Assembly: GCF_964204865.1 (NCBI RefSeq)
Contig: NC_135259.1
Span: 3,658,001 to 3,722,000, forward strand
Direction of reading: 5' to 3'
DNA from: Styela clava
Lineage: Eukaryota > Chordata > Ascidiacea > Stolidobranchia > Styelidae
Length of the DNA stretch: 64,000 bases
The translations under genes were made by a program, and so were the position numbers. Each line of letters begins with the position of its first letter. The first letter of the stretch is position 1. Shown piece after piece: positions 15,255 through 49,000 of the stretch. Under the pieces are notes generated by a model. The model worked only from the letters and a program-made list of their open reading frames with translations. It searched no databases and was not told the DNA's origin.

Positions 15255-15325
15255 TTGTTTAATGTCATTGGTCAGAGCGCTCCAAGAATTTTATGACTAT
15301 AGGTTACTGTGTTTTCCCCTTTTTC

Positions 15326-15699: not shown

Positions 15700-15983
15700 G
15701 TATCTACGGCATGTTGGATGCCGTTACGGGCCACGCACATCATATCGCCAGATTGGTACTGTAATGATTATTATGCTGTCTTCTGTTATTGTTGTGGGCG
15801 CGTTCTTGATTACGTGATCTGTAGTTGTGTGAATTTGTTTACGACAATACATTCGAGTCTCGGCTTCTTTTGGAGTAACGTGTGTTTTCTGTCCTCGCTT
15901 GTACATCACTAGACAGAGGAGTTTAGTTATTTAATGGTGGCATGCGTTGAAAACGAAATTCACGTTATCACTTCAGGACTGAA

Positions 15984-17166: not shown

Positions 17167-17226
17167 CATTCTTTTCCTCTTCCTTGTTATCGACGCATCG
17201 CATCCATCGACAGATGGCACTGCACG
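17167..17226 (-). CDS. Second copy of the 60-bp penultimate exon of the PPxY gene
   Basis: Identical to 7860-7919 and carried on the second tandem unit. The exon starts with two bases that complete a codon and ends with one base, so it is symmetric and could be spliced in twice without shifting frame. Whether it is used depends on exons further upstream, which I could not locate. Confidence 0.4.
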
Positions 17227-20200: not shown

Positions 20201-21411
20201 CATATTTCTCGTCGCCTTTCGCGTCCGTTTTCCGCTCGCTTTTGCTACTCGGCGTCTTTTTTACGTGTAGTACCTGCCTTTTTGCGCCTGTAACGAAACA
20301 AAATAATCTCTATATCTAAGAAGTTTTGCTCACTTGGAAAGCTGGAATGGCAGGCAAGCTGTAAAGAGCAATTTTGGACATCATAGACTTTTTTTTTATC
20401 AGTGAAGATTACAAACGCGATAGCGGAAAGATTTGTGTGGAACATTTTGCAGATAATGACAAAGTTCAAAGTTAGTAATTTTAATGTTTGCGCTTAATCA
20501 TTGAAATTTCATTTAAAGAGGGTGTCATACAAAACTGTGCTGTGATACAATTCCATAACACAAAGTCTGCACCTATCGAACTTGCTTTTGTAGTTGAATT
20601 TATTAGACATATTACATATTCAGTTAATCGTAGGTAACATTGCTGGTACATAATGCATCGTAGATAGGTTTGTTTAAATTTAGGAATTTAGTTCATAGCC
20701 CACTAATTAATATTATCTTCTATGCAGGAGGTTGCAGAGCTGAATTCAACTTGCAGCCTTACCGATCACCTGACGATGCTCATTTAGTTTGGCTCGAGCA
20801 AGTCTTCTTGAAATGCTTGTGTGGATGGAAAGTGGAAACTACCTATAATTTTTGCCTTTCTCCGATTTTGGACAAATTTATTCTGAGGCATTTCGCATAA
20901 AATTCTTATTGATTGTTGGCTGTTTATAATTCCTATTGATTGTGAATTCTGATTATAACAAAGAGTTAAAAAAAATTTTACCTAATTTACTGGCACCTTT
21001 TTCTTGTCAATACTCCAAGCTGAGGTAATAAACAAGACATACATTTATGTCATCTGGAAGCAAAATATGCACACTAATTAATAGTTTGGCACATTGAGAT
21101 AATACATCATGACAGAAAATACAAGTTAAAGATATGTATGACCATCACATGGTAATTAAAATTATAAAAAATTAATAGGGGCTGTGGAGTATGAAAAGTT
21201 CAAGACAAAGAAAGGAACAAATGTTCATAGCTCATGAACTCTCAATTTTGCCTCCATTGCTTTGTGAAGGCCAATATATTTCGAGTGGCTGAATTGGTTT
21301 ACCTTTATGATAGCAACGATTTTGTATTTAATATAGCAAGATTATGATTATTTCAATTTAATTGAAGTGATATTATTTCCCAAAGCAATGCTTGAATCGT
21401 CTAGAATAGAT

Positions 21412-22422
21412 CAGTGGTTCAAACTCATGGGTTTTCGAGAGCCGCATTGCGATTTGGAAATTGTAAAAAGGGCCGCAAACAGTTTTTGATAATGTATACT
21501 TGAAAGATATTTTTAAGATAGTTTTAGTTTGTGACATATATTGTGATGCAACTAAACAGTTGGATTAAGTTTTATTATTTTCTTCAATTTCAAATGCAAT
21601 TACATATTGATATTTGCATTCCACTATTATTGCAACATTTGCAAGTTACTGTAATTATTATAAAAAATCATAAAATGTCACAAGCATAGTAAGGCCAGGC
21701 TGAAATGATTTTATAGTACCAACTCTAAATAACGAGGCCACATGATCATGGGTTAATCTGGATCTTTGCAAATGTTTAATTATTCCAGTAATGCAAAAAA
21801 AGTTACTTTCATCATTTCATGTATAGATCAGTAAAAAAAAAATGACAGATTTTTTCGACAAGACATTTCGCACCACATTGCGTGGCATAGGATTGCTTGA
21901 ATTATTATTGATATAGATTTTTAGTAACCAAGTCGTTGTATAATTATATTAATATACAAACACATGGAAATTTTCTGTTCGAAGTTGGTCTTCGAATTTG
22001 TCATATTGACTGCTGAGCTTATTGTGTTTTTTCATTGTATTGATGGAAATATGACAAATTAAACAATGTGCTTCAAAATTTTGTGGAAAGCAGAAATATT
22101 GCAACTCCCATTTTCTTCGAAAATGCCACTTTCTTCATGTACTTTGCGTTTGATTTAATCACTCAAGTGTTTTATTCAAGTATTCTTTTGCTAGCTTGAT
22201 GTGTATTCTTAATTGGGTCAAAATGTGGACAAAAAAAATTAATATTCCAAAACTACTTTCAGTAAATTGTTTTCTGTGTGGATAATCAATCTCACTTTAA
22301 AAGGTTTGAAAAATCTATTACATTTAGATAAAAAAAAAACTTCCAAAATACTATTACAATTATTGTTAAGCGTTCGAGGGCCGCACTGGAAGTTCTCTGG
22401 GGACGCGAGTTTGAGATCCCTG
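21412..22422. mobile_element. Non-autonomous hAT element, copy in second tandem unit
   Basis: Same element as at 12105-13115, carried by the tandem duplication and not inserted independently: the flanks and the imperfect target duplication are identical. One substitution (position 21611) separates the copies. Confidence 0.75.
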
Positions 22423-23031
22423 GTCTAGATTGAAGTTGTCCAAAAAATATATGATAGTATTTTATCATGAATGATGATTATACGCCTTCCGTAATTTCTT
22501 CTATAGTACTAACAAAAGTTGATGAACCAAATATAACACAGGTGCAGTGAGTTACCCGTAATCCTCATTTTCCAAAGCTGTTTTAAGTATGTCTGGCGTG
22601 TTTTGTGCCTTTATACAAATAAGACCGCTTATGCAATCTTACGCTGGGAAGTTTTAGTTTTTTTCCACAAGCCCTGCAGGATGTGGGGGCCATACACAAC
22701 TCTACCGGAGGGTCAAATGTCTTTGCATGCCTCCATAGGTTGTTTTTCTATTGCAAACATTTAAGGAGTACTCTAATTATATTTCTTGGAATCACACTGT
22801 CACTGATATGTCGCCAGACTTCTGATATCTCCCCTTCTGCTATAGTTGTCCTGTGAATAAATAATAGGAAATTAAGATCAGACGAATAGTTGAAAGTTTT
22901 GCTTCATGTCGGCTTAATTTCTTGATTGATATACCCACTATTTCTGCTATTACCTCTTGTGCTGCAGGAGTCTCACAATGCTTAGACAGGTTTGTCCACA
23001 ACTTTCACATATGAAGAAAGAGAGGAGATTT

Positions 23032-23864
23032 TTCCTTTTTTTTCCGTCAGACCGCCGTCGGGTGCGGACGTGGTATTACACGGTGGAGTACTGGAGTAAA
23101 AAATATTTGGACTAAAACTTGGAAAACCGGACAAACAGGATTGAATACAGACTAGCTTTTATCTATGGAGCTGCTTTGATAAGAATTGCGTTGATCACTT
23201 ATTCACTTGTAACAAGTGATTGAATCTAAGGGACTTCGAGGAAACAGAAATAATCGACTTAGCTGCCGACACTGGATTGATCAGTAAATTCATGCGAGAG
23301 AAACAATTCATAGGAACAATCGATGTTCAACACAATAAGATGGAAGCTCCGGAATGTTGGACGTTGCAAAGAATAAAAACATTTACTCCAATTTCTACGA
23401 ATTTGAACCAAAGCAACGCCCGAAACTAGTTTTCGTGTTTTTATGTTTGTTGTTTATTTTTTACTTTTGTTTGTTTACAAAAAACAGCAGCTAATCAATT
23501 AATTGGTATTCGCATTTCGGCACAGGCACCATCACATAACTTCTAAATGTTTTTGTATTCTTCACGACTTTCACTCATCAAAATTATTTACAACATTACA
23601 AGTAAGCTTTGCCCGGGAAATTTATTTTCTCGTGATCATGTACTCTGTTCATTAATTTATTCTAGTATGATTGTCTTGGTGTGTTTCACGTGTGTGAATG
23701 TGGGTGAATGGGCACAATCGCTGGTTACAGCGTTCGTTATAAACCTTTATATAGGTTTTGCCCGTTTTCCCGATCTTTCAGTTGACCTTGTCTGTGTTCT
23801 TTTTATTTGTGTTGTAGACGAAAGATCGAAATAAAATTGTATTGTATTGTATTGTATTGTATTT
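23032..23864 (+). mobile_element. 833-bp retroposon, copy in second tandem unit
   Basis: Identical to 13725-14557, including tail length; carried along by the 9.3-kb duplication. Confidence 0.75.
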
Positions 23865-25729
23865 ATTAATTTTCGTTTAGAATAAATAAAGCAGTCTATA
23901 TGGTTTAGAATGGAAAAGCTAATAAATCCAATATCTCATATTTTACTGAATTTGGTATATAAACCAACTAATAAAAGGGTTTAGTCAGAAAATTACAAGC
24001 ATTCGCGGCTCCAAATACTTGAGAGATCAGACTATACAAGATAGACCGGTATGAGTGAAATGTTAGGTGAACTTGTTAACACTTTGATTCAATACGCAAA
24101 TATAAGTGAATGCGCAATAGTATATTACAATGAGCAGCAATCAACAATGAGTAAATATCCTCACTGATTAAAAGAATCTAACTGGAGGTGCAGGAACTAT
24201 TTGAAACCATAAGGAGTAAGTAAATATGTAATTTCGGCAAATGGGCAACTACGTACCGTACTGAATTAATAACTTCGTAGTCTTTGACAAAGGCTGTCTT
24301 TCCCACATGTACTTAACAGTGCGATGCCCGGGTGTGATATACCACAATAGTATTTACCTTACCTTTTTCCGATTTCTTTTTACCTTAACTTTCCAAAATA
24401 TCATTAAAATCGACAACAACTGTCGAGACAGGCACGAACACCATTCGTGCTACGCCTTGAAAGCAGCACACATCCGCTCGTTTTCGTCTCGTCAAGTATG
24501 TGCATTGGAGCGTGCTATCCAATACGATCTTCGGACAAAAATGCCGGAGTTGCGCATCATGTTGTTTAATGTCATTGGTCAGAGCGCTCCAAGAATTTTA
24601 TGACTATAGGTTACTGTGTTTTCCCCTTTTTCCTACAATTTTAGCTTCAGCTCTGACAGCATATTTGCAACATATACTGCATTAGTATTTTCGTTTTCCA
24701 AAATCAGAATAATTTTGTTGAAGAAGGCTACATGAGCTTGCCAAGGTCATACTTTAAGTACAGTTTTTACACTGGATCGTCGAAACATTTTTGTATAAAA
24801 ATAGGACATTCTTTTTGAGAAATGAAATAACTTTTTAGACCTTCAAACTTTTCCGTAATCCTCTGCAGAGCAGGTAGGGGGAGAGGAGAGAAGCCATGTG
24901 CTGCCATGCTGCAATAGCCGTTGATGCTCGATATCAACAGTCGGGAAATGATTTCAGCTCTGTCAATCGAACGGTGTAAATGTAAAAAATATTTGCAAAC
25001 GGTCAAGTATCTACGGCATGTTGGATGCCGTTACGGGCCACGCACATCATATCGCCAGATTGGTACTGTAATGATTATTATGCTGTCTTCTGTTATTGTT
25101 GTGGGCGCGTTCTTGATTACGTGATCTGTAGTTGTGTGAATTTGTTTACGACAATACATTCGAGTCTCGGCTTCTTTTGGAGTAACGTGTGTTTTCTGTC
25201 CTCGCTTGTACATCACTAGACAGAGGAGTTTAGTTATTTAATGGTGGCATGCGTTGAAAACGAAATTCACGTTATCACTTCAGGACTGAAATGGCTTCAC
25301 CTAAAGTTCCCAAACAATGGCAGCTTAGCAAGTTCGAGACTATTAACTCGTTCAAATCGTGGCGCCAGAACAGCTATATATTCTTGCAATAGACAACAAC
25401 TTTAGTCAATTGCTCACTGTCGGATTCACCTGGGGGAAGAAAACCAAATCTTCACCGGCAATATTTCTTTTTAAGTTTAGTTTTAGTTTGAAGAAAACAA
25501 TATTTGTCCCTCGTTTTCTCACGCCTTCGAAGTTTACAACTGCAACTGGACAAGCTTTAAATTATTTTGTTCTATGTATAAAAACTTTTAAAACGTTGGC
25601 AATGAACAGCCTTGCCATGCAAAAGACTAGTAAGTCATCAAATCCACGTCACCCCTGCGGAGTTCAGGAGCAGATCACTTTGTAGCAAATGTGGAATATA
25701 ACTATGAATTTTATTGGTGTTTAACCCCT

Positions 25730-26330
25730 TTATTTGAGACGTAAGTGTACATAACGATCGTTTTGATATTTTTGGACACGTGAGTGGACCTATGGATCGT
25801 TTTCATATTTTAGACAAACTTGTTCTTGTTGGTCTTCTCCTTCTTCGTATCGTTTGGAAAAAATCGCTTTTCTTCTTGATTGTTGAAATTTTCAGTGAGT
25901 AAAGATTATATTTTTTGCTAGAAGGCTATTACTTCTATTTATCGTTTTTTGTGTGCTATGACACCATTAAAATTTGCCACGTGTTCATAAATTTGAGCGT
26001 AACTCTCTTGTTGTCGTTGTTATTATGCTCGTTCTTGATCTTTGACACGGTATTGAAAAGTCGCTTTTCTCTTCGATTACTGGACCAATTGCTTCGAAAT
26101 TTTCAGTGGTGTAAGATAGAATTTTCTTCTAAAAGGCCATTACTTTTATTTTCTTTCAAATTTTCTGGGAATAGTTTTAATTTTTAAAACTGGGAGATTT
26201 AATTTTTATTTTTCAATCATGGGAACACCATTTTTAATCCGCCAAGCGTGACTGCCGACTCTGAAAATGTTTGCTCAAGAAACTCGGAAGATTTTTGAGA
26301 TTACCGGTACGCGTAATGTTGTGGATTACT
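25730..26330 (+). repeat. Dispersed repeat family, copy 1
   Basis: Shares ordered blocks with 59705-60060: GTGTACATAACGATCGTTT, TCGCTTTTCTCTTCG, CTGGACCAATTGCTT, GAAATTTTCAGT, TTAATCCGCCAAGCGTGAC and TTACCGGTACG. The left part (to 25884) lies in tandem copy 2 and also occurs at 16423-16577; the right part is outside the duplication. No terminal inverted repeats were found, so the class is unknown. Confidence 0.65.
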
Positions 26331-27649
26331 GTTTCTCTTGGAGTCCATATATTTGTAGACTGCGGTATTTACTGTTATGATACCGTGGTAACTCGAATCA
26401 GTTGGTATTTCAATTGAAGTTGAAACAGAATTGCGGAAGAAACTGAAAAATCCGTGTACCTGTAAAAGTGCCGCTTTGCCGAGAAGAAGTAAGTATAAAA
26501 GTCAAACAGTCTCTCATAAGCGGGGCTTGCAGTCACAGTTATAATTAATGACCTTTAATATGGGGGCCTTTTTAAATAGGTGAACTGTGTTGTACTGGGT
26601 ACCGGTACTAGTAAGTCAGTTACCATAGCCATGAAGCTGTTTCGCAGTTCAGTTTCGTGCAGGATACCCTATCCTGTGGTTTTCGGTGAAGGGATGATAA
26701 TATATTTCGTTTTATTCTAGGTTTCCGTATATTTGAGCATAGCTCTCTTGTATTAATAACATGTTGAATTCAACGAAAATAGGTGATGTTTGCACATTCC
26801 ACGGTGGTGATTTATCGTATCGAAGGCTTCACTCTTTATGAAGAACTTCGTGTTTCATAAACAAGTTTCCGTAGATTAATTTTCATACTATGTTCTATGT
26901 AGGTTTTTAATGGAAAATATCCCCCGTCACAAATTGCAGAAACACATTTAAATAAATACAGTTTTTAATAATCACATTACCAGAAATGTATAGAAATATT
27001 GAATATTATCAAAATTTACCAGAGTTCAAATTTTATCAATGTTGTTTATATTGAAGGCTAGGACACTAAAAAACTATATAAACACACAAATTAGACTATA
27101 AAATCCCCAAATGTGAAATATTTAAACATGAATAGAATCTTTGAATCATGTCTGGAGCAGCAGAAGTGACTACGAAGTTTCTGCATATATAACACTGAAG
27201 AACGACGTTACCACTATACGCATTAATATATATATATTCCAGATTAGGCAATAAAACATGCTTTCAATAACAATAACCTTTTATTAGATTGTGAAATGGT
27301 GGCCCTCACGCGGCGCCTCGTGTACCACGATCTATTTAATAATCATGTTTTGCATTAATCCGAATTAATGATAGCAGTTTTGTAGTTGACCAATAAAATT
27401 ACTGATATACACTTTTTACAAAAACATTAAAATAAAAAAAATAACAAAACAAAAATGAAAAGCAAGGCAATATTCCCAACAAGTCCCTATTTCTATTTAA
27501 AATTAATGCTATCGTTAATAATTTATTTAATTAATATATTACTTTGTGAATATTATATTTTAGGTCTTTAATATTAACAAATTGAAATTAGATCCTAAAA
27601 TGGTAAGACCACACAATGTCCAAACACCTTCTGACTAAATAGCCTACCA
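26331..27649. other. Intergenic, nothing recognised
   Basis: AT-rich non-coding sequence. At 26731-26752 it has one copy of the recurring ATTTGAGCATAGCTCTCTTG motif that also occurs twice at 60.1-60.4 kb. Confidence 0.4.
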
Positions 27650-27969
27650 CAGGGCTACTCAACTATTTTTATCGAAGGTCCGCAAACAAAACTTCAAAAT
27701 TATTTGGGTCCGGTCATTCCATAAATGATATTTCGTCATTCTTAATTAAACGAGCACTTCATCGACCGACTAATGATTAGTAGCAAATTAAAATTGTTCA
27801 TTATGGGGTTATTGTTCTTTTCGTATATGTTCAAAACTATGAAAGTCATTTTATAATAGGAAATTCAAAAAGTGGGGCTAATGATCCAAAATAAATAATT
27901 AGGTGCGGTCCAAATCCAATACTCGAAAGGTCCGGATTCGGACCGCGGTCCGCCAGTTGAGTAGCCCTG
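27650..27969. mobile_element. hAT MITE, 320 bp, perfect 8-bp target duplication
   Basis: Ends CAGGGCTACTCAACT and, inverted, AGTTGAGTAGCCCTG: 15-bp perfect terminal inverted repeats. The element is flanked on both sides by GCCTACCA (27642-27649 and 27970-27977). Subterminal GGTCCGCAAAC and GGACCGCGGTCCGCC also mirror each other. The intact target duplication suggests a fairly recent insertion. Confidence 0.93.
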
Positions 27970-30401
27970 GCCTACCATATACTGTTTTGGCTTACTCATT
28001 CGTTAAATATGAATTCGTGTTTATTGATCGCACGCAAAAAATTCTAATGCATGTTGTAGTTATCTATGATCTTCAATGACTCCACTGTGTTTTGCTTCAA
28101 ATATGACAAAATTTTTTTTGGTCATTTCGGTGTTTGAGATATGAAGTTCTATTGATTCTGTTGCATCGAAGAACATTACGTTGCTGTATATATCATATCC
28201 TGAATGTGAATTTTTTCCCAACTTCCTAATTTTTTTTATAATGAAATCTCCGATTTGAATGGTTTAATATAGTGTTTGATTGAGCTACGTTTATATTATA
28301 TTTCATTTTTATTATACATATAAATGTGATTAAAATGAAAAAAAATTGATATGGGTGATCAGGAAATACATTTTTTCTCGAACATATAAAATAGGAACTT
28401 TCCCATCATCCGGATAATTCTTCAAATGTATTGGATAATTCTATTCTGCAATAATTCTAACTTGTCCTAAAAAATCGGAAACTCTCGAATCATTCCGAGC
28501 ATTTTGAAATTTACAAACTATGGGAAAGCGAAGCATATTTCACAATAAAACGCTATATATTCAGAATAGGCATAATAGTCCCTTATGCATACACTTAACT
28601 TTACACCATTTTTCTAACCTCATACTCTGGAACCAAGTTACCTATATCTGAATCAAATTCATACAACCCCCTTTTATAGGTAGTGAACTCTTAATTTGGG
28701 GCAGATAAATCTGCTGATAACGAGCCCATATTAGTCAAACTGAGTGGATTGCTTTGAAATATTAGGTCGGGGCATCACTGAAGTCACTTCATCGGTACTA
28801 GATTATTCTTGTTTAATTGCGGCAAAGACACGTCTATTGCCAGTCAACTCCTGGCCGTGAGAATAGCTAGCCAAGGAATAATTCCAAGGACATGAACATA
28901 ATGGTGGAGCAGTGCAATTGGGTAAGTGCACTAACGAGTGATGTCAGGGGGATTTCGATTTTCTCACATTCAGACACTAATTTGAAATTAAGGAAGTTGA
29001 TGAAACGGCTAAATTACATGTCGAACCACGGGCCCATGGCCTCTCGCGCAATTAACAGTCCCGGTCGGGTATAGTAATAGCCACCAAATTTTTGATAGTT
29101 CTTAAGGATAGTTCCGAACTGCATTTCGATCAAACTAGCTAATCCCACACCCGGCGCGGCTGTTTAAAGCCGGCGAGAGGCCAAGGTTCGTCAAATGAAT
29201 TCACCGTTTACCGGAATTCTTTTATTCCAGCATAAAAAACCTAAATGTGGAAAACATAAATCTCTCAACATCACTGAGTGGTTTACGTAATTTCTCGCAA
29301 CTGCTCCACAATTTACACTCACGCGTCTGAAACGATTATCAGCTAAATATTCCCAAATCAGGAATGGACTGGTACCGCGGAATAAACAAGATCATTCCAG
29401 TAGAGAACACCCATTCAAAATATACAGCAATCATTCTAGCACGTTTATACTGGATTTTGTCAGAATGCCAAAAATTAAGATTAAGCTTCCACGCTGGCCA
29501 GTTTTTGAAAATCGTTTTAAATTCTAATAATATTATCTAAAGTAAGACAAATCTCTGAACGAAAGGGAGACTTTGCTAGGTAGCCTATAAGCAAAGCATA
29601 ATCTAACTAAAACTACAAAAAATGTACTTTATGCGCTGGTGACGCTTTTTTAATAATGCCTCAAGTTAAGAATTGATTTATTACCTCGTAGAACATGTCT
29701 TAAAATAGCAAAGGGTACTCACTCTAAGAAAATATCAATCTGTGTTTGGACTGCATCACATATTCACGTTAAGATCGTTCAATAATGCAGTATGTTTTGC
29801 ATTATTCGTTTGACGTTCAATTTTTATAACTTTTGCCAGTTTCTAATATAAAATGTTTTATTTTGTCACGACACAGGTATTTAATGGTCGCGGGTCATTA
29901 TTACCTACTTAAATATATTTCTTCACTATAAAATTTGTACGGTATTTTTTCAGCGATACACTTATTTGAAATGTTCTAACTGTACAGAATCATAAACAAC
30001 GCACATATGTGACGTGTAACTAATTCTGAAGCATAGTGATAGGTGAGGATCATAGATAACTCTGACCAAACAAGCCAAAAAATGTTGAGTTGTGTTGTCA
30101 TACCATCTTTGCTAAACATTTTTTTATGTTAATATATCAAAATTTAAGGTAAATAAAGATATAACCGTGATTGAGAGCTAAACTAATACGTTTCATCAAT
30201 TTCAAAAGAGAAATGGTGGGGCAGATGAGGTAAGCTTTTATAAAAAATGTACATAAAAAGTGGATTTTTAAACATATTAAAACGTTAGGATGTTGGGAAT
30301 ATTGCCTTACAAAAAATACAAAATATAACAAAATAAATTTTTAAAATAATCACGACTAGCACAATCAAAATACGACGTGCTGTCGTATACAATATCCTGG
30401 A
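27970..30401. other. Intergenic; GC-richer island at about 28780-29200
   Basis: Mostly AT-rich. A stretch at 28780-29200 is richer in G+C (for example CCCACACCCGGCGCGGCTG near 29140) and contains a 60-residue frame at 28892-29074 with no recognisable motif. It may be an old element or an unannotated exon; I cannot decide. Confidence 0.35.
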
Positions 30402-33400
30402 TTATTGCCGCTTTCTGTCCTTACTGGGAGGACCTAGAATTAAAAAAATATTTATTTCGATTTGTATCTATTTTATTTTATTAATAAAAGCCACCTATGC
30501 AATAATATGATTTACTGCTGGAGAGAAATTGCCTGAAAGAGTTCTTCAACGATTTCTATATTAGCATAAAGAAGTAAACCTTACATTTTCCAGTTGCCTT
30601 TCTCAGTAACTCTTCCTCTTCTTCGCGAGTAATAACCTGCATTTGAGATTTGAAAGCCACTGGTTTTCTTGTCTTACGAACAATGGTGTTGGAAGTTGGA
30701 AATGGAGCTGAAAACTCGGCAAAAGTTCCAGAGAATTCAGCTGAAAATAGATGTTATACTATTAAAAGAAATTAAATCACAACTTTTTAAAATAAAATCG
30801 ATGTAGGCTACTTTAGCACATCTTCAATTGCCCAAATTATCACTACGGCAATAAATATTCGAAGAAAAAGGTATTCAGATTTGGAACTGACGTTTATAGT
30901 ATTGTATGTATTGTTTACAAGAAATTTCTAACGAGTTAATGAATTCAACATAGTGAAACTTACGTTCTATCCTGGTGGCTGCGACAAATGGCTGTATGGT
31001 CTTTGAGATTTGAATCTTAAAAATTGAACAATAAATAAACTATTATATACTTGATATTCTAATTGTTCATTGAGATCTGTTACCTGTTACTTGTGCTCTA
31101 ATTTTTGTCAATATTATGTTCAAAATATGCAAATTTCCAGAATATTTTTTATGAAAAACAGTTTTTTAAATGAAGAAGTTCAGCCTAGTTAGCAATAGTT
31201 AATATAATTTCAAACCATCAAAATGTCTTTGAAGGAGGTATTAATCTCTGAAAGAGTGCTACTCACTTGTAGCCTTAGAATGTAAATCTAATAATGATAC
31301 AGTGTGAAAAAAGTGAAACAAAACAGTATTCAATTGGTTTACCATTTCGGATGGTGAAGGTAGAAGTGAAATCGGTTCTGGAACCTTTTTCTTGTATTTT
31401 TGAAGAATTGAAGTGATTTCACGCTTTAACAATAATTAAGTTAAGTCAAATTCGAGTGATAGTGAACCAGTATCCAAAAAACATCTAATGCTTTGAATGA
31501 AACAAGAGAAATATGCTTAAATATAGTGACACGAATATCGCATCAGTTCCGATACGGTTAGTCACAAGAACACTGTGTTTGCTAAAATGATTGACGGGCA
31601 AGTGGTGGTATGTAATAAAAATTGATCCCCTTCAACTAGAATTCAATAATGTTCTTGGGGAAATATCGGGTTCCATCATGATTTGAAAAAAAACTACTGT
31701 AATTGCCACTGGCTTCTATCTTCCATATACTGGCAATTTGATTTGGGCGAAGAAAGGCGATTTTTCAACAACAACAATAATCGTAACAACCAACAACAAC
31801 AACAATTTTGTTAACTCCATAATACCCGAGGTATCTTTGCCCAATTCATTCCATTTTCATAGTCTACCTCAATTGTGCAATGGTATGTTCTTCAATCGAA
31901 AACAGCTACAAAAAAATTAAACCATTTCCTAAATCCTTCATACCTTCTCCTCTTCCTTTCTGCGAATGATATCCATCGTATCCAGAACCACAGACTGAGC
32001 AATTCCTCTGCACATTTTCTGCAAAAACATTATAACTTATCAATAAGTAAGCAAAAAATAAATCATAAACTAGACTTTGTTATAATTTTTTTAATACAAA
32101 AGTTAAAGTGGTATTTCAAATTGCAAAAATTAAAATTCATTTGCATAAATATCTGAAATGTAATTATTGCAAGAATTCAATACGAAAATGTGATTGCCAT
32201 TATTTGTTTAAAGTAAACGGGTTAGAATTATAAAACAGAACCTCGGTACGATTCTTCTCTACTGACGCAGTGTATCCAGACAAAATATTCATCACATTGT
32301 CATCACCAACATTCTGAAAATTTGATATAAATAAATTTTTGCTCAAATCTAATTCAAGTATATAGGGGAGATTCAGTTTTGGGCCACCATTTTTTTTGTC
32401 TGTTTTCAATCAGAACCCTGAACATTTAATTCAACCGATACTCCCCGAAGCACACTTATAACTCTGCTATACAATTTCTGTTGGTTTGTAACGTGTAAGG
32501 GACATTTCCAATATATATATATATCTAACGTACCTCATCCTTCTCATGTGCCAGTTGAACAATTGCTCCACAGATTGCATTGAAAGCCATTTCACCTGCA
32601 ATTTCTCTCTAAAAAGAAATTTGTATTTCTTTTGAGAGTAGAGAATAATATCGTAATAAAAGTTAGAAAGTTTTGTTCTGGAAGAAAACTTTTGCCAAAT
32701 ATCACATTAATTATGAATGGCAATATTGAATTCTTTTGCGCATTCCAAGTATTAATGCCTTCAACACCTCATAAATTCCAGCTGCCTAAATGCCGAACGT
32801 TTGATATATATACAGTGATATATACAGTGTAATCCTGTGTAAAAATGTTATTTAAATAATATCCGAATTATTTGTATTATACTCACCAATTCCATGGCAA
32901 GTCTCATTGACTGCAAAAATTCTTCTCTCTTACGCTTCTCTTCTTCCTGATAAATGAATAAATAAATAGATAAGGATGCTATTTAAAACGATTTAATATA
33001 TATCAAACTACTAAATGTGTTCAGTGTGCGATTTTGTTTTCATATTTTTTGAATAAACATGGCCAAAAACACGTTGGTTAGTTCAATTGGTCTACTTCGG
33101 AGATATAATGCTCGTATTAAACTTACTTCCTTATTGATATTATCCTTCGCACTGCCAATAGCTTCCGCAACAAAGTCGTTGATATTCTGCCAAAGAAAAT
33201 AAATAGAGATAGAAAACTTGTTCCAGCAAAAGCCCAGTATATTTCATTGAACTGACTCAATTTTAATCTACAACTAGAGTTACTAAATAAATTATAATCA
33301 AATGAAAAAGATTGGACGATATGATAAATACCTTCGCGATCGAAGATGCATCACTGCTGTTACCAGATTCTGCCTGTGTTGAAAAAAACAACTATTTTTA

Positions 33401-36400
33401 ATAATTTATTCTATATTTATATATTGACTATAACGCATTAAATAGTTCATACTTTAGGATTGACGGTGCCTTTTGCAGAATCAATGACATCCGTAACGAA
33501 GTCGCTGAAATCCTGAAATGTGTATGTAGTAAATAAATTAAAATAAATAATAGTACAAAGATGTTTATCACAGTAATGATTAATATTTAGATATGAGCAA
33601 AGTAAGATAATATAAAATTCAATACCGCAGAAATCGAATCATCAAACGAATCGAAAAAATCATCATCATACGCTGCACTCTCATCTTCATTCTTCTCTGT
33701 GCTCTGTCACAAATATTAGTAGTGATAATAACAGGGTTTATTCGATCATATATGTTCCTATTTTCATGATGGAAATCCCAATCCCCTGGAGGCTCTTCTG
33801 CGTCTCATGAGTTCGAGATCGAGCAGTTTACAACCTTTATACTCAAGTATTTTAAAACATTCAATGCGTAAAATATAATCAGATTAATTTGCTTACAACA
33901 GACGATTTTTCATCTCCATCTCGACCACCCACTGGTTCATCATCAGCTGCAGACACCAACTTGCCACCTGAATCCGTAGACTATGAATAGAATCAAAATG
34001 TAATTATTGGGTTAATGCAATGTAATATATCTCTGTGATGACAAACCACAATTCAGTCACGGCTTAGTCAGAGTCAAGTACCAGCTTCAAATTCGAGTTC
34101 TAAGCCCCCCTCTCCTGTGGCAAGTCAAACCGTATCACTGCTATTTCGAGTCACAATTCAAATTAAAGTCAATGTAGATTTCATGAACAACAGTAAAATG
34201 GATAAATGTGAATCACATTGACACCTGAAAATACCATCTTAAGATTGACCCAACATTTTTTTAAACTCAAACAACTGAGATTTACTTATATAGCGTGGTT
34301 CGAAAATTTGGGCAAAATACTAAGGGTTGGAAATACGCTTACCGTAGCGATTCTTATTACCTTGCGCGGGCTCAAATCGCATGGGGCATAATCGTTTACA
34401 TAATCGGCGTAACGTTGGGTGAGAATTGAATCACTTAGAATCAATGACTAGATTATCTTCAACACTGCTTACTAGAAACAAACTGTAATTTACTTTTGCA
34501 GGCAAGGGTGTGCGTGGGACGCAGGTTGTGCCACCACCCCCACTGTCACATGCATCGTTCATTGTTTTGTTTTCCACCTTCTCTGGTGAAGGTGTGCGTG
34601 GGGAACAGGTTGCTCCACCACCCCCACTGTCAAATGCATTGTTCATTGTTTTGTTTTTCATCTTATCCAGTTTGTCGCTCTTTGGGAAGCATGATGTAAT
34701 AATCTGTTATAAGGATTATAGTTATAAACAATTCGATAGGATACAATACATAGATTATGTATCCTTAATTTGACAATGCATCCTTTTTTATATAAATATT
34801 AATAATAAAGTAATAAGTAAACCTTACTTCCATCATAGTTCTTAGAGACCTTCCATGCTTTTTGTCGCGGTTCTCCGCTCCTCTTATGTTAAGATTCATC
34901 TTCTTTTTTCTCTGTGAAAAACACATTACATTAACCTGATTGTAACTATAGACACGAACAATTATTTATGACAAGGTCTGTGTGTTTCCTAATTAATAAA
35001 ATGAGTTCTGTTGCTACTATTCTCTCTTCCCGAAGGGGGTTGTACACTTGCAGCAGAGTAGTAGCATGTTTATAAAGAAGGAAGTTGTTCAACAGAGCAT
35101 TGGCTGTCTAGTATTTCCTACTACTAACAGAAATTATGTATTGAGCCACAATCTCTGAAATACGAAGTCACATTAGTTGTGCCCACCACGCTAACAGGAG
35201 TTGAGTAGTATTGTACCTTCAGGCCGGAAAGAATTTTATTCAAAGTAGTTCTGACAGCTTCCTTGTTGATGTTATCTTTAACATATTTCTCTCCACAGTT
35301 TCTTCTCTTCTGTTTTCTATACCATCTTCCATTCCTCTATTAAAATAATTAGGAAAAGGGTGAAGATTTATTTTAAAAGAGACGAAGATAATATATAAAT
35401 ATTTAAGCTTTTTCTTATCTACAATGCAATCAATTAATATATGGTTAATGAATATAATATATCATACGTTCTCATTAGGCTCGAAATCACAACTCTGGTC
35501 CGATGACGAATCTTTGGTCTCATATCTGAAGAAACATGGCAAGCCCTGGGAATGTGAAGGTTAGGTTTGAAAATTTGCAAACGACCATATCGGATAATAA
35601 AACTGAGTATTGTAATATACCAAAAATAATAAACAAAACAGGCTAGATTCAGGCAAAAGAAACTATGGGTTCGGGATTTGGAATAAACGCTAAACAGCAT
35701 CATCATCAATTTTTCATCTTGAACTTTGAAACGTCATAAAAACTTTAAAATAATAGCTAAATCCTCTAATCATAATCGACGAGTAACCCATTAGCGTCCA
35801 TGCCAAAATATGCTTGGTTTTTGGTACAGCTTCATGAGGAATGATGAAATATAGTTTTCCTTACCACAGCATTGTTGGCTTTCTTCAGTCTCTTACCAAA
35901 CCAAGTCACAAACGCAACGACGCATTGTACAGCGCTCAAGTACTGCATTTCTTCATCATCTGGTTTCTAAAATAAATGAAGATAATACCTCACCGAATAA
36001 TCACCGAAGACGATGTCAATCACGACTATTGACCAATTTCGGTTGAACATAGTCATTTGTCGTGGTGGAGTAGTTACTCGACGGACCACCAGAAGTATGC
36101 GCAACCTGAACATAGTACGTGTGTACCGGTTAGGGTTCAGGTTGTGCGACATCTTGTTGCGCATACTTCTGGAGCACCGACTCGACTTTACACGGAACTC
36201 AAAGTTGCCCGTACTTGGCTCGAGACTTATAGCATTATGCATAGATTCACTATTGCTAAAAAATAATTGAAAAAAACTACCCAATACAACCAGCATTTAG
36301 CAGGAATATTATGATTCTTTATGTTTTTTAAAGAAAGTTCGATAGATCTCAACTAAAACGGTAAAATCGATTGGATAAAATTGTAGGAGATATGGAGGAA

Positions 36401-36978
36401 CACCCTGACGGGCTATGGCTATTGCTAGTAATTTCGTTCGCTCTTCTTTTGCAGGCTTGAATTTCTTCCCGTAGATTTTTCAAAACAGTGACTGATTATT
36501 GCTTTAAATATAAAATACTGGTTCTGTGTTTAAAAAACAGAGTCGATGAGATATGTGGATAGATAATTTTTGGGATCTTTTTTTTCTAGGAACATAAGAT
36601 TCATTTCTGCTTTTGATCACATTGCACGATCTGCGGTGAACTTACATATAATATGCAAAAAACAGACATCAATTTCTTATAATAGACAAATAACCTATAT
36701 AATTTAATAAACTCCCACCCCTGGTTATCACGAAACTCCTTGTGACGAGATAGAGTTCAGCAAATCTCTGTATATTTTTCGCTAGAAAAAATCTGTCTGT
36801 CAACAATCGGCACAATACAGAAAAACGCGTTCAAAAATTAGTTAAGTAATTCACTCACTGTATCCAACTTTTTGCGATTTTTTCGACTCCGCTTTTTGGT
36901 ACTACCGGTACGTGATATGCCATATCCCCCGTCATCATCTGGTGGGAAGACTCCCACTTTATTCCGGCGAAGTTTCAT
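30402..36978 (-). CDS. Novel multi-exon gene, about 538 residues, family unknown
   Basis: Exons (minus): 36978-36859, 35966-35865, 35336-35217, 34911-34828, 34703-34494, 34447-34361, 33980-33897, 33703-33626, 33512-33453, 33373-33332, 33186-33127, 32946-32887, 32608-32534, 32313-32242, 32018-31944, probably 31390-31343, 31015-30964, 30740-30585, 30433-30402 (stop TAA). All joins hold frame; the first 16 exons are phase 0-0 and three are exactly 60 bp. The N-terminus is basic (KKRSRKNRKK). Exon 2 has a hydrophobic stretch (LSAVQCVVAFVTWF). Exon 5 carries a 28-residue tandem duplication with DSGGGG. Exon 8 is acidic. Exons 9 and 11 encode related DFVTDVIDSAK / DFVAEAIGSAK segments, and exons 12-15 encode charged helices. 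INDFVAEAIGSA and AFNAICGAIVQL fit the degenerate RII-binding (AKAP) helix pattern. No enzyme domain was found; a scaffold protein is a guess. Confidence 0.75.
34494..34703 (-). repeat. Two 84-bp tandem repeats within exon 5 of the novel gene
   Basis: The exon encodes two consecutive 28-residue units of the form N-K-T-M-N-x-A-x-D-S-G-G-G-G-x-T-C-x-P-R-T-P-x-P. The DNA repeats are strongly similar, including the GGGGGTGGTGG core, so this is a recent in-frame expansion. The TPSP/TPLP ends could be proline-directed phosphorylation sites (inference). Confidence 0.85.
36088..36172. repeat. Nested hairpin in intron 1 of the novel gene
   Basis: Outer arms CCAGAAGTATGCGCAA and TTGCGCATACTTCTGG are perfectly inverted. 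Just inside them, CAACCTGAAC and GTTCAGGTTG form a second perfect inverted pair around a loop of about 25 bases. It could be the core of a fold-back element or a structured transcript segment. Confidence 0.75.
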
Positions 36979-38308: not shown

Positions 38309-39563
38309 TCAGGTATACACTATACCAGAGTTTCCCAAACTTTTTCGGCCGCGGAACACTTACACTTTTTATCTCGCCTCGCGGAACACCAAAAGATGAA
38401 AGGGTAAAATTGATAAAAAAAAAACAGTGCAATGTAGCGGTTCCCAATAGGTTCGTCGTGGCGAGTTGAAACTGACAGAATTGTGTTAGACATACCTAAA
38501 ATATGATTGAATATTTTACATATTTCATTTTTCATAAATGTTTTATTGCTTCTCAATTTGAATGCTGTGTATATAAATCAACAAATTTTTTTTCCCCTTC
38601 TACGTCGTTTACTTTTCATTACGCAGTGTTTGCCTCTAATGTTACGTCTAATGGAGATAGACGTACTTGCTGCAACTTCGCGAGCTGCAGTTTATTTATA
38701 TGCTGAATCGAGTTCAGCGAACATGAGTAATTTTTTCAGCATTTCAAAGTAAAACCAGGCAGAGATGGCGGAAAAAGAGTTGACCATTTGTCTTCATTCA
38801 TTATACCTACTTGTTTGCCTATCTATAGCAAAACCGAAAGGATTGATGCAAACTTGATAAAAAGCTAGGACGACAGTTAACGAAAATGCGTTGAAGACGT
38901 GTTCCGCGGTACACAGTTTGGGAAACGCTGCACTATACAGTCATGCATTCTACTTCAAATATTCTCTGTTGAGCACCCAATCAGCAGGCTTGCGGTGAAT
39001 ATACACACATTCGATCCGGAATCGCATTCCAAACTCTCGGGAGTCCGAACCGGAGTCGCTTCCTTAACTACGGAGTCGGAACCGGAGTCAAACTCTTGTT
39101 TTCAGGAGTATGGTGCCGGCACTTCAGTCGAACTTTTGAATTATCTGGAGTGCGGAGTCAGAATTTGAGACATAATGATGACAATTGAGATTAAAATTTC
39201 CCACAAAAGCATCAGGTTGACTAAGCATTCTCAACAGACTATAAGGGAAGGCAGGCTTGCATACACAAAGTTTTTGTTATGAATCATTTCCTGAAATTGG
39301 AGTCAGAGTTTCTTGTAAATCCGGAGTCGGGAGACATTTCGCAAATATCTATCTGAAAGTTTGGACTTGAGGCAGGTGTGAATTTTCCCCGATTCCGCAG
39401 TTCGACAAAAATACCACACAAAAGTACGGTAGTATAAATTCACAACTTATCCCAGATGTAGGCTGTAGTTCAAAAACTAAAAAAATATGTTCCTTTACGT
39501 CGTCCTATAAAGGCCCTGTGCCTTACCTTGTAGCGGAGCGCATAAGTGTATATTCAAGTAAGA
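38309..39563. repeat. Local direct repeat, copy 1 (contains a hAT insertion)
   Basis: Without the 605-bp hAT element, this copy aligns with 39584-40226 from TCAGGTATACACTATAC through CGGAGTCGGAACCGGAGT-rich sequence to GTAGCGGAGCGCATAAGTG. The CGGAGTC words recur as short degenerate repeats. The copies differ by scattered substitutions and small indels. Confidence 0.9.
38326..38930. mobile_element. hAT MITE, 605 bp, with matching empty site next door
   Basis: Left end CAGAGTTTCCCAAACT; right end, inverted, CAGCGTTTCCCAAACT. Both ends continue into CGCGGAAC sequence. Flanked by perfect 8-bp duplications CACTATAC (38318-38325 and 38931-38938). The neighbouring repeat copy has a single CACTATAC at 39592-39599 and no insertion. 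Non-autonomous: no transposase frame. Confidence 0.95.
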
Positions 39564-39583
39564 TATACACACTATATTCTTGT

Positions 39584-40226
39584 CAGGTATACACTATACA
39601 GGCATGCATTCTACCTCAAATATTCTCTGTTGAGCACCCAATCAGCAGGCTTGCGGTGAATATACACACATTCGATCCGGAATCGCATTTCAAACTCTCG
39701 GAAGTCCGAACCGGAGTCGCTTCCTTAACTACGGAGTCGGAACCGGAGTTACACTCTGGTTTTCATGAGTATGGTGCCGGCACTTCAGTCGAACTTTTGA
39801 ATTATCTGGAGTGCGGAGTCAGAATTTGAGACATAATGATGACAATTGAGATTAAAATTTCCGACAAAAGCATCAGGTTGACTAAGCATTCTCAACAGAC
39901 TATAAGAAAAGGCAGGCTTGCATACACAAAGTTTTTGTTATAAATCATTTCCTGAAATTGGAGTCAGAGTCAAAGTTTCTTGTAAATCCGGAGTCGGGAG
40001 ACATTTCGCAAATATCTGAAAGTTTGGACTTGAGGCAGGTGTAAATTTTCCCCGATTCCGCAGTTCGACAAAAATACCACACAAAAGTACGGTAGTATAA
40101 ATTCACAACTTATCCGGGATGTAGGCTGTAGTTCAAAAACTAAAAAATATGTTCCTTTACGTCGTCCTATAAAGGCCCTGTGCCTTACCTTGTAGCGGAG
40201 CGCATAAGTGCATATTCAAGTAAAAT
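39584..40226. repeat. Local direct repeat, copy 2 (uninterrupted, empty site)
   Basis: Same sequence as copy 1 without the hAT element. Frames of 89 and 103 residues cross both copies (38899-39168 and 39518-39829) but are driven by the CGGAGTC repeat words, so I do not call them genes. Confidence 0.9.
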
Positions 40227-41109
40227 CAATACAAAATACTTTCCACTAGTTGTTCATTCAAACCCATATTTATAGAAAACATATGAATGAACTCTAGTTT
40301 AACTTCGAATATATAGGGTGGTCCAAAAGTTGGTTGGTTAAAAGTTATTCAAATAAATAATCTAGTAACTGTTGAATACACACACATTTATAACTGGTAA
40401 AAGCACACTTCTATAATATTGTGCAGTTGTTTATACAGAGCCCAGTTAAGAGCGAATAAATGAGTGAGTTTTGGGAGAAGGATAATTGGCCCTATCTGCG
40501 TGTCCACTCACGTGTTATTGGGTTGACACGCGTTTAATTGCGTGCAACTCTAATCTGAATTTCTCATAAGTCATTAAGCACACAATGTATTGTAATAACA
40601 AATGCTCGTATATTGTAAAGTTGCACCATCGAATTGACCCAAATAACAGATAACAAAATACCCCTAAAACCCTAACGCAAGACGAGCGATAAAGACGAGC
40701 AATACTTGAGCAAGGAAACAATATCATTTATCTATCAACAATACATGATGAAAATATCAAAAGACTATCCTTTTGTACTCGCTACAGATTAAACTCCACA
40801 TGCTTATTCGGATGCTCAAGTATAGGGACACAGAGAGTAGATAGACATAGAGTCTAGTGTCGAGCAAGTGCGTGGTTGAACCTCAAACTTTTCTACGCGT
40901 TACTTGAATTGCTCCACGAAAGATCGGCACCTGAGTTTTTTGCGTTATGTCTACGACTACGTGAAGGTGTACTCGAACATAGGATTAGCATCATCAATAT
41001 TACATTTAGGTAGAACCTTATACATAACAAATATCAATATAAACATTTTTGTTCGCTAACCAATGCGGAAAAATACATGTAAAAAATCTAAATAAATGAC
41101 ATCACTCAC
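40227..41109. other. Intergenic; possible transposon end at about 40315
   Basis: TATAGGGTGGTCCAAAAG near 40313 looks like the start of a TA-inserting DNA transposon, but no inverted partner was found. Nothing else recognised. Confidence 0.3.
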
Positions 41110-41229
41110 TGTATCCAACTTTTTGCGGTTCCTTCGACTCCACTTTCTCGTACTACCGGTACGTGATACGCGAGGTCTTTCGCCATCGTCTTGTGGGACG
41201 ACTCCCACTTTATTACGACGAAGCTTCAT
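41110..41229 (-). CDS. Duplicated first exon of the novel gene
   Basis: A 120-bp open exon, exactly as long as exon 1 at 36859-36978, starts MKLRRNKVGVVPQDD and ends SRRNRKKLDT at a consensus donor (ACA|GTGAGT). It agrees with exon 1 at 29 of 40 residues, mainly at the ends, including SRTGST and RKKLDT. Bases 5' of the ATG are also related (CACAGCGAA against GACAGCGAA). It lies 4.2 kb upstream on the same strand in the same phase, so it could be an alternative first exon splicing to 35966. It could also start a lost paralogue. The open frame and intact donor argue against simple decay. Confidence 0.7.
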
Positions 41230-44454: not shown

Positions 44455-45110
44455 ACTTCGGGTGATCGGGTCGATCGTCAATTATAAAGAATAAAGACAT
44501 GGCGAGTTAGCCCTCCCTCGAACTCGCGATGCCGATCACAATTATAAAGAATAAAGACATGGCGAGTTAGCCCTCTCTCTCGATCTCGCGATGTCGATGG
44601 TCAATTATATAGAATAAAGACATGGCGAGTTAGCCCTCTCTCTCTCTCTCGCGATGTCGATCGTCAATTATAAAGAACAAAGACATGGCGAGTTAGCCCT
44701 CTCTCTCTCTCGATCTCGCGATGTCGATGGTCAATTATAAAGAATAAAGACATGGCGAGTTAGCCCTCTCTCGGACTCGCGATGTCGATCGTCAATTATA
44801 AAGAATAAAGACATGGCGAGTTAGCCCTCTCTCTCTCTCGAACTCGCGATGTCGATGGTCAATTATAAAGAATAAAGACATGGCGAGTTAGCCCTCTCTC
44901 TCGAAGTGGCGATGTCGATCGTCAATTATAAAGAATAAAGACATGGCGAGTTAGCCCTCTCTCGAACTCGCGATGTCGATCGTCAATTATAAAGAATAAA
45001 GACATGGCGAGTTAGCCCTCTCTCTCTCTCGAACTCACGATGTCGATCGTCAATTATAAAGAAAATAGACATGGCGAGTTAGCTCTCTCTCTCCCTCTCT
45101 GCTCGCAATC
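44455..45110 (+). repeat. Minisatellite, ten units of 60-67 bp
   Basis: CATGGCGAGTTAGCC (with CT-run variants after it) starts at 44498, 44558, 44621, 44684, 44751, 44812, 44879, 44942, 45003 and 45070. Each unit also has CAATTATAAAGAATAAAGA and CGCGATGTCGAT(C/G)GTC. Length differences come from the number of CT dinucleotides after GCCCT. Units alternate partly between GATCGTC and GATGGTC forms, hinting at a higher-order pairing. Confidence 0.95.
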
Positions 45111-46055: not shown

Positions 46056-49000
46056 ATGGATAATTTTGGTTCTGTTAATATAGCAATACACGCTTTCATA
46101 TTGTGCTTTTTCATTTGTAATGGTAAAGCACAAAGGTTGTCCATAGCATACCATCCAACTAGTGGTGCCACATGGGATATATCTTTAACAGCTCAGAGAA
46201 TGCGATGTGGCGTCAGAGGACCCAGGTCTACTGTAGTTGATTGGTACAAAGATGGCAAACGCATTACTGGAAATATGCGTGTATGGATAGCCAAACCTGA
46301 TTATATTGATGGTGTTATCATAAGCTACATTATCTTCAAGACTTTATATAAATCCGACGAGGCAGTATACGCATGTAAAGCTCATAACAGTAGAGGTAAT
46401 GCACAGTCAAGGCCAGCCACTTTGACAATTAGAGGTCCACCTGGCGTAAATATGCAATCTTCATCACCGGAAATTATAGCTGTAAGTTGGCATGAACAAT
46501 TTTCGATACCCTGTGTTGGCAAAGGCCCACCAGATGTGGACAAAGTGGTTTGGAATTATAAAGGATTCAAAAGTTCTGCTGTTCATAAACCAGTAGAAAT
46601 CTTGTATGGAACGCAGCATAAACCAGTGAGATTTCCTAGTTTGACTGCTCTTCCTAGGGAAGATGATGCTATGGCTAACAATATTTTGTTTTATGAAGTG
46701 TTTTGTGTGGTACATAACAGAAGAGGGAGTGCTAATTCAACAAAAACAAGAATTAACATAAAGCGTAAACCTGGAATCCCAACAGTGCATGAAATTGTTT
46801 CATCTTCTGGAGGAGCTAATGCATCAGTGTTTTGGAAAATATCGTCCAATGGTTTTGATAGAATTACATCTTGTTCATTACAACTGCATTCTAAACCAGA
46901 TTTCATCAAATCTTTTTCACTACAAATATCTTCAAGATCAGGAATGAATGAAAAAGTTTTAACTGATTTAACACCAGTAACTGATTACACATTTATTGTG
47001 AAATGTTCTAATTCAATTGGTGCATCAGACTGGTCAAAAGAATATAGTTTCACCACTGCAGAAGGTTTTCCAGATCGTCCTCCAGGAGATGTCACTGTTA
47101 CACCTGTTAGTGAAAGTCGCCTCGAAGTGTCATGGTTACCCGTTCCAGAGGTCCATGTCAATGGCATTCTTAGAGGATATAAAGTAAAATTGTTGCATGG
47201 CAATGGCGGCCACGAGGCAAGGAAATTGACTACTGTAGATCCTACTAAGACAACATTCAATTTTTATGATTTATCTCCTGGGAAGGCATTCTGTGCCAGA
47301 GTTTTGGCTTTCACCAATGTAGGAGATGGACCTTTGAGCACTTCTAGCTGTGCTGCAACCCTAAATCCAGCACCGCTTGATCCTCCTATCATTGAGAATG
47401 TCAAACCAGGAAGAGGACAAGTCACAGTAACATACAGAGATGGAAATAATCGACAAGGACAACTTCAAAATTGTACAATCATAATTCAAGATTCTGCCAA
47501 AATTAACCAGCAGCATCGTCTAGATGTACAACTACAAAATGGTCCTGTAGAAAATACTATACGATCACTTTTGCCGAATGCTGCATATAGCGTTACCATG
47601 AGATGCAATTCAGTAAATGAAGTTTCTGTTTTAAGTAATACAAAGTATTTCAGAACGCTAGAAGAAAAACCTAAATATGCTCCACGTAGCTTAACACTCT
47701 CTGAACACAATCATGCACTTGTAGCGTCATGGAGCTCTATAGATAACTCACGTCTGAATGGAAATTTTACAGGATACAACATATGTATTTCTTTCAAACT
47801 CGTGAAATGTTATGATTCTGTAAAGGCAACAAATTTTTCTTTTGCTAATGTTGAGGCTCAAGGTGTATATACTGTCGAAGTAGCAGCATGTACAAATGCA
47901 GGTTGTGGACCATTCCAATACAAAACTTTCATTATGTCTTCATGGACAACAATTACTCCAGTAACAGTAAATACAACCAATGTTGCTATGACACCTTCAC
48001 CTAATAAAGATGAAAAAAGTGTTGTTGTGATTGTTTGCATCATCATTGGAATATTACTCATTTTATTTGGTGTTATTTTCATATCTCTACGAAAATTCAG
48101 AGCTAGAAAAGCTAGTAATACAAACAATAGTCCGACTGTGGTGTACACACCAGCGAATGGTCGAATGGCTGTTGGAGAGTATGATGAAGTTCCAAATTTG
48201 TCACGTAGTAACGCGAATACACTAAATCCTTATTCCACACCATTGCTTGCCGATTCCTCAATGCTTTCACCAGAAACAATGACAAAACTCGAGAAATTTA
48301 AATTTGGTCGAGAAAGATTGAGAATATTTAAAGTGCTGGGAGAGGGTGAATTTGGCTGCGTTTACAAAGGTAAATTTGAACCATTCGATACAGATGAACC
48401 CACTGGGTCCGATGGTACAATTGACGTTGCGGTGAAAACAATGAAAATGAATGAATTTGATGCAAGTGAACGAGAAGAATTTGTTAAAGAAGGATTGAGA
48501 ATGAAAGATATGGATCACCCACATGTAATGAAATTAATTGGAATTTGCTTGCCCGAAGACGGTTCAAACACAAATGGTAATAACCAAATTCGACTCTCTG
48601 GGTTTGAAGCGGTGTCACCTCTAGTGGTTCTTCCTTTCATGATAAATGGTGATTTGCGGTCGTACTTGTATTTGGCTCGTAACACGAATGATGTTAAAGA
48701 TTTAACCCTCAATAGATTACTTCATTTTATACATGACATTGCTAGTGGTATGGAGTATTTAACAATGAAAAACATTATTCACAGAGATTTAGCTTGTCGA
48801 AACTGTATGTTGGATGAAAAAATGCGAGTAGTCGTTTCTGACTTTGGACTTTCTCGCCAAATTTATTCAAGTAATTATTACAGACAGAGAAGAGTTGCAA
48901 AAATGCCAGTAAAGTGGATGGCATTGGAAAGTCTTGTTGACAGGATATACACAACCATGACAGATGTGTGGTCATTCGGCGTTACAGCGTGGGAAGTATT

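Follow-up and report, generated by a model that had tools for sequence, protein, structure and literature searches.

A predicted phase-0 mini-exon gene of Styela clava and its putative place in a multi-copy family linked to Suppressor_APC

The window analysed here is a stretch of 64,000 nucleotides from the ascidian Styela clava (contig NC_135259.1, called C13 below, positions 3658001-3722000), on which an earlier note, made from the letters alone, had described a gene built of mini-exons and assigned to no family. As far as sequence can tell, comparison with copies in the same genome demonstrates that this locus is a protein-coding gene under purifying selection. It appears to be a branch without the Suppressor_APC domain (SAPC, PF11414) of an undescribed, expanded multi-copy family in which that domain is otherwise linked to the same N-terminal exons, a family that is probably tunicate in range. 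The best explanation overall, which we hold with moderate confidence, is that of a selected phase-0 mini-exon gene, one of a family marked by a shared second exon, whose product we infer to be an intracellular adaptor.

The gene lies on the minus strand, with its ATG at 36978 and its stop codon at 30402. A first splice model joined 20 exons between these points without a frame break and gave 544 amino acids. Comparison with two copies described below, C6a and C6b, led to the removal of exon 13 and to the lengthening of exon 17 by 33 nt, and the refined model has 19 exons, 18 introns (16 in phase 0 and two in phase 1) and a product of 546 amino acids; exon numbers follow the first model, so that the 19 exons are numbered up to 20. 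Exon 13 (32785-32759, with a GC donor) was dropped because C6a has no AG acceptor there and C6b has neither the acceptor nor the length. The short form of exon 17, with its acceptor at 31390, was rejected as well: the preceding 33 nt show codon-level conservation, one synonymous change apart, and the acceptor in front of them scores -0.04, compared with -5.15 for the one at 31390. A candidate extra exon between exons 6 and 7 (at about 34.4 kb), judged by eye only, was left out of the model. Exon lengths run from 32 to 210 nt, the smallest internal exon having 42 nt, and are multiples of three in 17 of the 19. The earlier outline of about 19 small exons without a frame break holds, with the start and stop it had given, and is kept in C6a; its count of 16 exons in phase 0-0 agrees if exon 1 is included, and the "several" exons of exactly 60 bp are three (exons 9, 11 and 12). 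The product is eight residues longer than the 538 first proposed.

Codon-usage coding scores were positive in 18 of the 20 first-model exons, being slightly negative in exons 18 and 20 and near zero in exon 3. The gene finder, trained like these scores only on three neighbouring coding stretches, recovered 11-12 of the 20 with exact ends, the number varying with the intron penalty. It scored the locus at 123.4, against a mean of 22.8 (standard deviation 7.8, maximum 47.8) for 200 dinucleotide shuffles, and the plus strand at 32.3. Phase-0 introns formed a run of up to 7 at the locus; the control segments of the window that did not overlap it had no run longer than 2 (there were 34 segments in all, including ones overlapping the locus). 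If 45% of introns in general are in phase 0, 16 or more of 18 would have a probability of 1.4e-4, which is no independent test because the gene had been picked for that trait. Two joins are weak, the donor of exon 15 and the acceptor of exon 17, and both are kept in C6a and C6b.

A DNA search of the 376.6-Mb assembly with the exon-2 region found three further copies, C6a (contig C6, 11.00 Mb), C6b (C6, 10.95 Mb) and C14 (21.79 Mb), which are 86-88% alike to the window over that query. In C6a all 19 refined exons are present, joined at AG/GT sites into 527 codons of open frame. Its exon 7 runs on for 9 nt more; in the window the donor that the C6 copies employ is altered, and an in-frame one 9 nt upstream can replace it. 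C6b keeps exons 1-18 with AG/GT, exon 19 was not found and its gene end is unclear; its intron between exons 16 and 17 holds about 8 kb of extra DNA, possibly an insertion. The C14 copy is decayed, with a changed start codon, exons 4, 9 and 19 out of frame, a stop in exon 6 and two altered splice sites, and its exons 11-17 were not found when the copy was fetched and aligned.

The ratio of nonsynonymous to synonymous change (dN/dS, by Nei-Gojobori count, with 95% ranges) was 0.34 (0.22-0.52) for the window against C6a over 515 codons, 0.28 (0.20-0.39) for the window against C6b over 484 codons, and 0.22 (0.14-0.31) for C6a against C6b over 458 codons. Exons 12-16 are among the most conserved (dN 0-0.034 between the window and the two C6 copies), and exon 7 is the most variable between the window and C6a (dN 0.197). 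These ratios argue for a selected gene and against a chance chain of open frames with no gene behind it. Such a chain could draw on the shortness of the single exons and on the low coding scores of exons 3, 18 and 20, but the splice sites and frame conserved in C6a already refute it, the score against shuffles opposes it too, and we give it next to no credence.

The homology to the three copies spans about 26.9-41.8 kb, and its left limits are similar (26866, 26866 and 26915), with the exception of a repeat at 25.8-26.2 kb that is common to the window and C6a. This would suit a unit of about 15 kb that is a mobile element or a selfish segmental duplication, the gene being its passenger. We regard that account as quite unlikely, since the DNA search gave just three further copies, the aligned pieces are only about 73-88% alike, the shared flanks have ragged ends and dN/dS is below 1. 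The DNA 3' of the gene (26866-30402) is about 74-84% alike in pieces to C6a and C6b, and no clear gene was found in it.

A protein search of the genome brought out weaker relatives, mostly of exon 2. With exon 2 of a member on contig C17 as query, and E up to 5, there are at least 17 exon-2 places on six contigs: six on C17, which form a tandem array with a spacing of about 13 kb, five on C6, three on C3, and one each on C8, C13 (the window) and C14. In 16 of the 16 loci read, exon 2 is edged by a phase-0 acceptor and a phase-0 donor, some loci having extra acceptors upstream. An alignment of 12 distinct, hand-chosen sequences shows A, C, A, F, W, F, G and K as invariant residues; among those left out were the C17 copy L052, with R for G, and the decayed C14 copy, with V for the second A. 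Modelled alone by single-sequence AlphaFold2 (AF2), the window exon 2 forms one helix (residues 3-33, mean pLDDT 81). A scan of viral contigs with the alignment matched the pattern in 18 stretches, with no relative among them.

The link to Suppressor_APC comes from the gene-finder product of the C17 member, which matches PF11414 at E 1.4e-7, its SAPC exon alone reaching 6.3e-9. A genome search with PF11414 gave 13 places, and 11 of these lie 2-5 kb downstream of one of the 17 exon-2 places, on the same strand; ten are over the cut-off of 25.4 bits, and the one on C8 is below it at 23.2 bits. The other two are a weak match with a stop on C3 and a match over the cut-off on C1, where no exon 2 was found. 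A further stretch at C1 resembles the family exon next after SAPC, so that this locus may be the ordinary SAPCD gene. The exon-1 module was seen at five of the seven SAPC-type exon-2 loci read, and the 1.5-kb flanks used may miss the rest. A leaning to phase 0 appears in the predicted chains of other members too: the longest runs were 6 on C3, 5 on C17 and 7 at C6d, a further C6 member, where 60 shuffles of each gave no more than 4, 3 and 4; phase-0 introns made up 13 of 21, 15 of 28 and 13 of 23, the shuffles having 28-35%. Runs longer than in shuffles were also found in the window and C6a, and the C3 chain had 12 phase-0 introns in a row when the codon model included the window gene.

No PF11414 match was found at six exon-2 places, namely the window, C6a, C6b, C14 and two on C3. 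In a genome search, C13, C6a and C6b were the only places with the helical cassette that exons 12-17 make up. A weak likeness to exon 14 turned up in one C3 member (E 0.03-0.16) and was not recovered by the cassette search; because this likeness is weak and at one member, the C3 pair is grouped with the window gene mainly on its missing SAPC. The earlier view that the protein belongs to no recognised family is true within Pfam and PDB, and misses the 17 exon-2 places, 11 of them with a PF11414 match downstream.

The profile search suggested in the earlier note, run against Pfam and PDB, gave no match over the cut-off or at a convincing E-value. Taken as chance were the weak Pfam rows for DUF5610 (E 0.31 with the whole protein, 0.038 with part), WASH-4_N (0.047), Di19_C (0.11) and Nlig-Ia (0.14), those for REC102, NAT_N and Ca_bind_SSO6904 (0.06-0.16) and, with the C6a protein, FAM186A-B_N (0.037). 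The same holds for the PDB rows for designed repeats (0.037) and two indole-glycerol phosphate synthases (0.27 and 1), and for decorin-binding protein (0.91), obtained with the SAPC alignment. Rfam scans at gathering scores and tRNA scans of the window gave none. In the open-licence literature searched, no paper on the family was apparent by title, and none joined Suppressor APC to tunicates or micro-exon genes to symmetric exons in phase 0; the family may be annotated elsewhere as an uncharacterised protein.

Several observations weigh against our reading of the locus. The window gene itself has no PF11414 match, whether in the 544-aa first model, in refined exons 12-17 or in the search of the locus, and the C6a protein has none either. 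Compared by profile with SAPC, the window C-terminus gave an hhalign probability of 0.3, with a profile of only three close copies. That exon 2 and SAPC stand in one transcript is something we infer from strand, distance and the in-frame gene-finder chain. The decay of C14, and the lack of exon 19 and the unclear end of C6b, mean that the locus may be dispensable. Finally, a membrane helix is another possible reading of exon 2, although the highest 19-residue hydropathy of the protein is only 1.22, and lies in exon 14. Two further candidates were set aside. For SAPC as a diverged part of the window gene, there was no profile similarity to its C-terminus; and a resemblance between exon 18 and the exon that comes next after SAPC (tblastn E 3.6-5.8) did not recur with a longer C17 stretch and is not claimed.

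The earlier note had also suggested that the protein grew by exon duplication, with related DFVxxxIxSAK segments in separate exons. Such segments are present in exons 9 and 11, and in exon 9 neither C6a nor C6b keeps the SAK. The two exons are related: 37 of their 60 bases are identical, and in each of the three gene copies (window, C6a and C6b) not one of 40000 shuffles scored as high. Within exon 6 the window carries two 84-bp units that are 82% alike; C6b also has two, and C6a has one. A second copy of exon 1, exon 1', stands 4.3 kb upstream of exon 1 with the same donor and phase, and an open copy with a GT donor also lies upstream of C6a and C6b. Among the three copies its dN is 0.12-0.17 (dN/dS from about 0.46 to 1.1) and that of exon 1 is 0.05-0.08, so that exon 1' is less constrained; it is likely to be an alternative first exon. 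The member at C6:2448806 (L056) has a second exon-1-like stretch upstream of the first, and duplicated first exons may therefore recur in the family. Between exon 1 and exon 1', 38931-39569 and 39592-40233 form a tandem duplication, 95% alike.

Duplication accounts for only a few parts of the protein, since only four of 190 exon pairs reached P <=0.01 in a screen and exons 14 and 16 showed no kinship (10187 of 40000 shuffles reached their score). Exons 4 and 11 have a heptamer in common, their score being reached by 3 of 40000 shuffles in the window and 39 of 40000 in C6a, and exons 16 and 19 gave 165 of 40000; both pairs are weaker than 9 and 11. Growth by duplication is thus borne out for exons 9 and 11, the exon 6 repeat and exon 1', and most other pairs show no sign of kinship.

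The predicted protein is highly charged, with a basic N-terminus that has no hydrophobic run (43 K+R and 20 D+E in the first 168 residues) and an acidic stretch in exons 7-8 (17 D+E, 4 K+R). A schistosome-like micro-exon gene (MEG), whose secreted, variable protein would arise by the shuffling of micro-exons through alternative splicing, seems to us very unlikely here: the exons are longer, at 32-210 nt with a smallest internal one of 42, the basic start and high charge would be unlike such a product, and exons 12-16 are conserved between copies. What recalls that class is its definition, given in an excerpt of PMC7263636, by mainly short exons with lengths in multiples of three.

A second account of the protein would make it an A-kinase anchoring protein (AKAP), in which helices from exons 11 and 14 would hold the R subunit of protein kinase A (PKA), or a sperm R-like protein, while the N-terminus would direct the complex to its site. 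Exon 14 may resemble a sperm AKAP helix. Exons 11 and 14 each hold a strict match to an anchoring-helix pattern; plain shuffles average 0.22 matches (P 0.025), but P rises to 0.33 once the hydrophobic pattern is kept in the shuffles. The first model had three matches, and the third went with exon 13. AKAPs employ an amphipathic helix, and anchoring requires five helical turns, according to the portion of PMC12203939 that we cite. AKAP3 and AKAP4 arose in vertebrates with the fibrous sheath (PMC11276731, in extract), and an AKAP4-type orthologue is therefore unexpected in a tunicate. The Pfam and PDB searches also gave nothing over the cut-off or above chance level, and on balance we consider an AKAP unlikely.

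The intracellular adaptor that we prefer might work as follows. The basic exon 1 and helical exon 2 would dock the protein to a common partner or to a membrane surface, the acidic and presumably disordered middle would be a spacer, and the conserved helical C-terminus (exons 11-17) would bind a partner specific to this branch; in the other branch, the SAPC coiled coil would take this C-terminal binding place. With 16 of the 18 introns in phase 0, the frame survives when an exon is duplicated, lost or skipped, and the exon differences between the window, C6a and C6b leave it intact too.

Elsewhere in the window, 7256-16581 and 16560-25888 form a 9.33-kb tandem duplication, 99.9% alike, with inner repeats of 701 and 551 bp, which is either very recent or an assembly duplicate. 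At 46056-49511 on the plus strand there is an intronless open frame of 1151 amino acids with immunoglobulin, fibronectin III and tyrosine kinase domains, for which an EGFR entry was the top PDB row, followed by the AXL and MER kinases; being intronless amid intron-rich genes, it is perhaps a retrocopy. The minus strand at 56459-57352, with exons on to about 53.4 kb, resembles by eye the extracellular part of a natriuretic-peptide-type receptor, and its predicted intron phases are mixed, unlike those of the mini-exon gene. The stretch at 106-2581 on the plus strand has by eye the look of a carbohydrate sulfotransferase, its first exon reaching Pfam Sulfotransfer_1 at only E 0.098. A tandem array of units of about 60-65 bp, about 90% alike, occupies 44470-45099. 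Outside the window, contig C9 has a match to PF01341 (glycosyl hydrolase family 6) above its cut-off, at 35.4 bits against 27, and a further piece below the threshold 2 kb downstream; in a genome rich in introns and with receptors of animal type, this makes a tunicate likely. The exons of the mini-exon gene are listed in Table 1.

Table 1. Predicted exons of the mini-exon gene, in window coordinates
Feature	Position	Strand	Remarks
Exon 1	36859..36978	-	start codon; basic N-terminus MKLRRNKVG..KKRSRKNRKK; kept in C6a, C6b; start codon changed in C14
Exon 1' (second exon 1 copy)	41110..41229	-	donor and phase as exon 1; likely alternative first exon
Exon 2	35865..35966	-	family hallmark, predicted helix QYLSAVQCVVAFVTWFGKRLKKANN; single-sequence AF2 helix 3-33
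Exon 3	35468..35545	-	78 nt, phase 0-0
Exon 4	35217..35336	-	120 nt, phase 0-0
Exon 5	34828..34911	-	84 nt, phase 0-0
Exon 6	34494..34703	-	210 nt, phase 0-0; tandem 84-bp duplication (34492-34659); one unit in C6a
Exon 7	33897..33980	-	84 nt, phase 0-0; donor 9 nt upstream of C6-copy donor
Exon 8	33626..33703	-	78 nt, acidic, phase 0-0
Exon 9	33453..33512	-	60 nt, phase 0-0; related to exon 11
Exon 10	33332..33373	-	42 nt, phase 0-0
Exon 11	33127..33186	-	60 nt, phase 0-0; related to exon 9
Exon 12	32887..32946	-	60 nt, phase 0-0
Exon 14	32534..32608	-	75 nt, phase 0-0; helix-like AFNAICGAIVQLAHE; weak C3 likeness
Exon 15	32242..32313	-	72 nt, phase 0-0
Exon 16	31944..32018	-	75 nt, phase 0-0
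Exon 17	31343..31423	-	81 nt, REITSILQKYKKKVPEP.., phase 0-0; acceptor moved upstream after copy comparison
Exon 18	30964..31015	-	52 nt, phase 0-1
Exon 19	30585..30740	-	156 nt, phase 1-1; not found in C6b
Exon 20	30402..30433	-	32 nt, stop codon

A wider proposal, which we put forward only tentatively, is that of a lineage-restricted family in which a two-exon docking module is combined with interchangeable C-termini, either the SAPC coiled coil or the new helical cassette; with phase-0 mini-exons as the scaffold, the protein could be recombined exon by exon in evolution and perhaps by alternative splicing or alternative first exons. A family with many copies, mostly phase-0 introns and in-frame gain and loss of exons offers a test of how symmetrical exons become new proteins, and short exons of this kind are easily overlooked by annotation. 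It would also link the SAPC proteins, known from work on SAPCD2 in spindle orientation, to an expanded family with a different N-terminal module.

Set beside known systems, the window gene resembles the schistosome MEGs in its short exons, 17 of 19 with lengths in multiples of three, and differs in that its exons are longer, its product seems, by composition, to lack a secretory look and its sequence is conserved between copies. With the AKAP family it shares helix-like segments, two of them fitting the anchoring consensus, whereas the match is within chance given the hydrophobic pattern and no family match accompanies it. SAPCD2 has an EF-hand motif at its N-terminus and a coiled coil at its C-terminus, and in vertebrates it binds LGN and steers the spindle, as set out in an excerpt of PMC9066194. 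No EF-hand was among the Pfam scan matches of the window first-model and C6a proteins, and the PF11414 match that defines SAPCD2 and its kin is absent from the window gene; what joins the gene to these proteins is that it shares exons 1 and 2 with PF11414-bearing loci.

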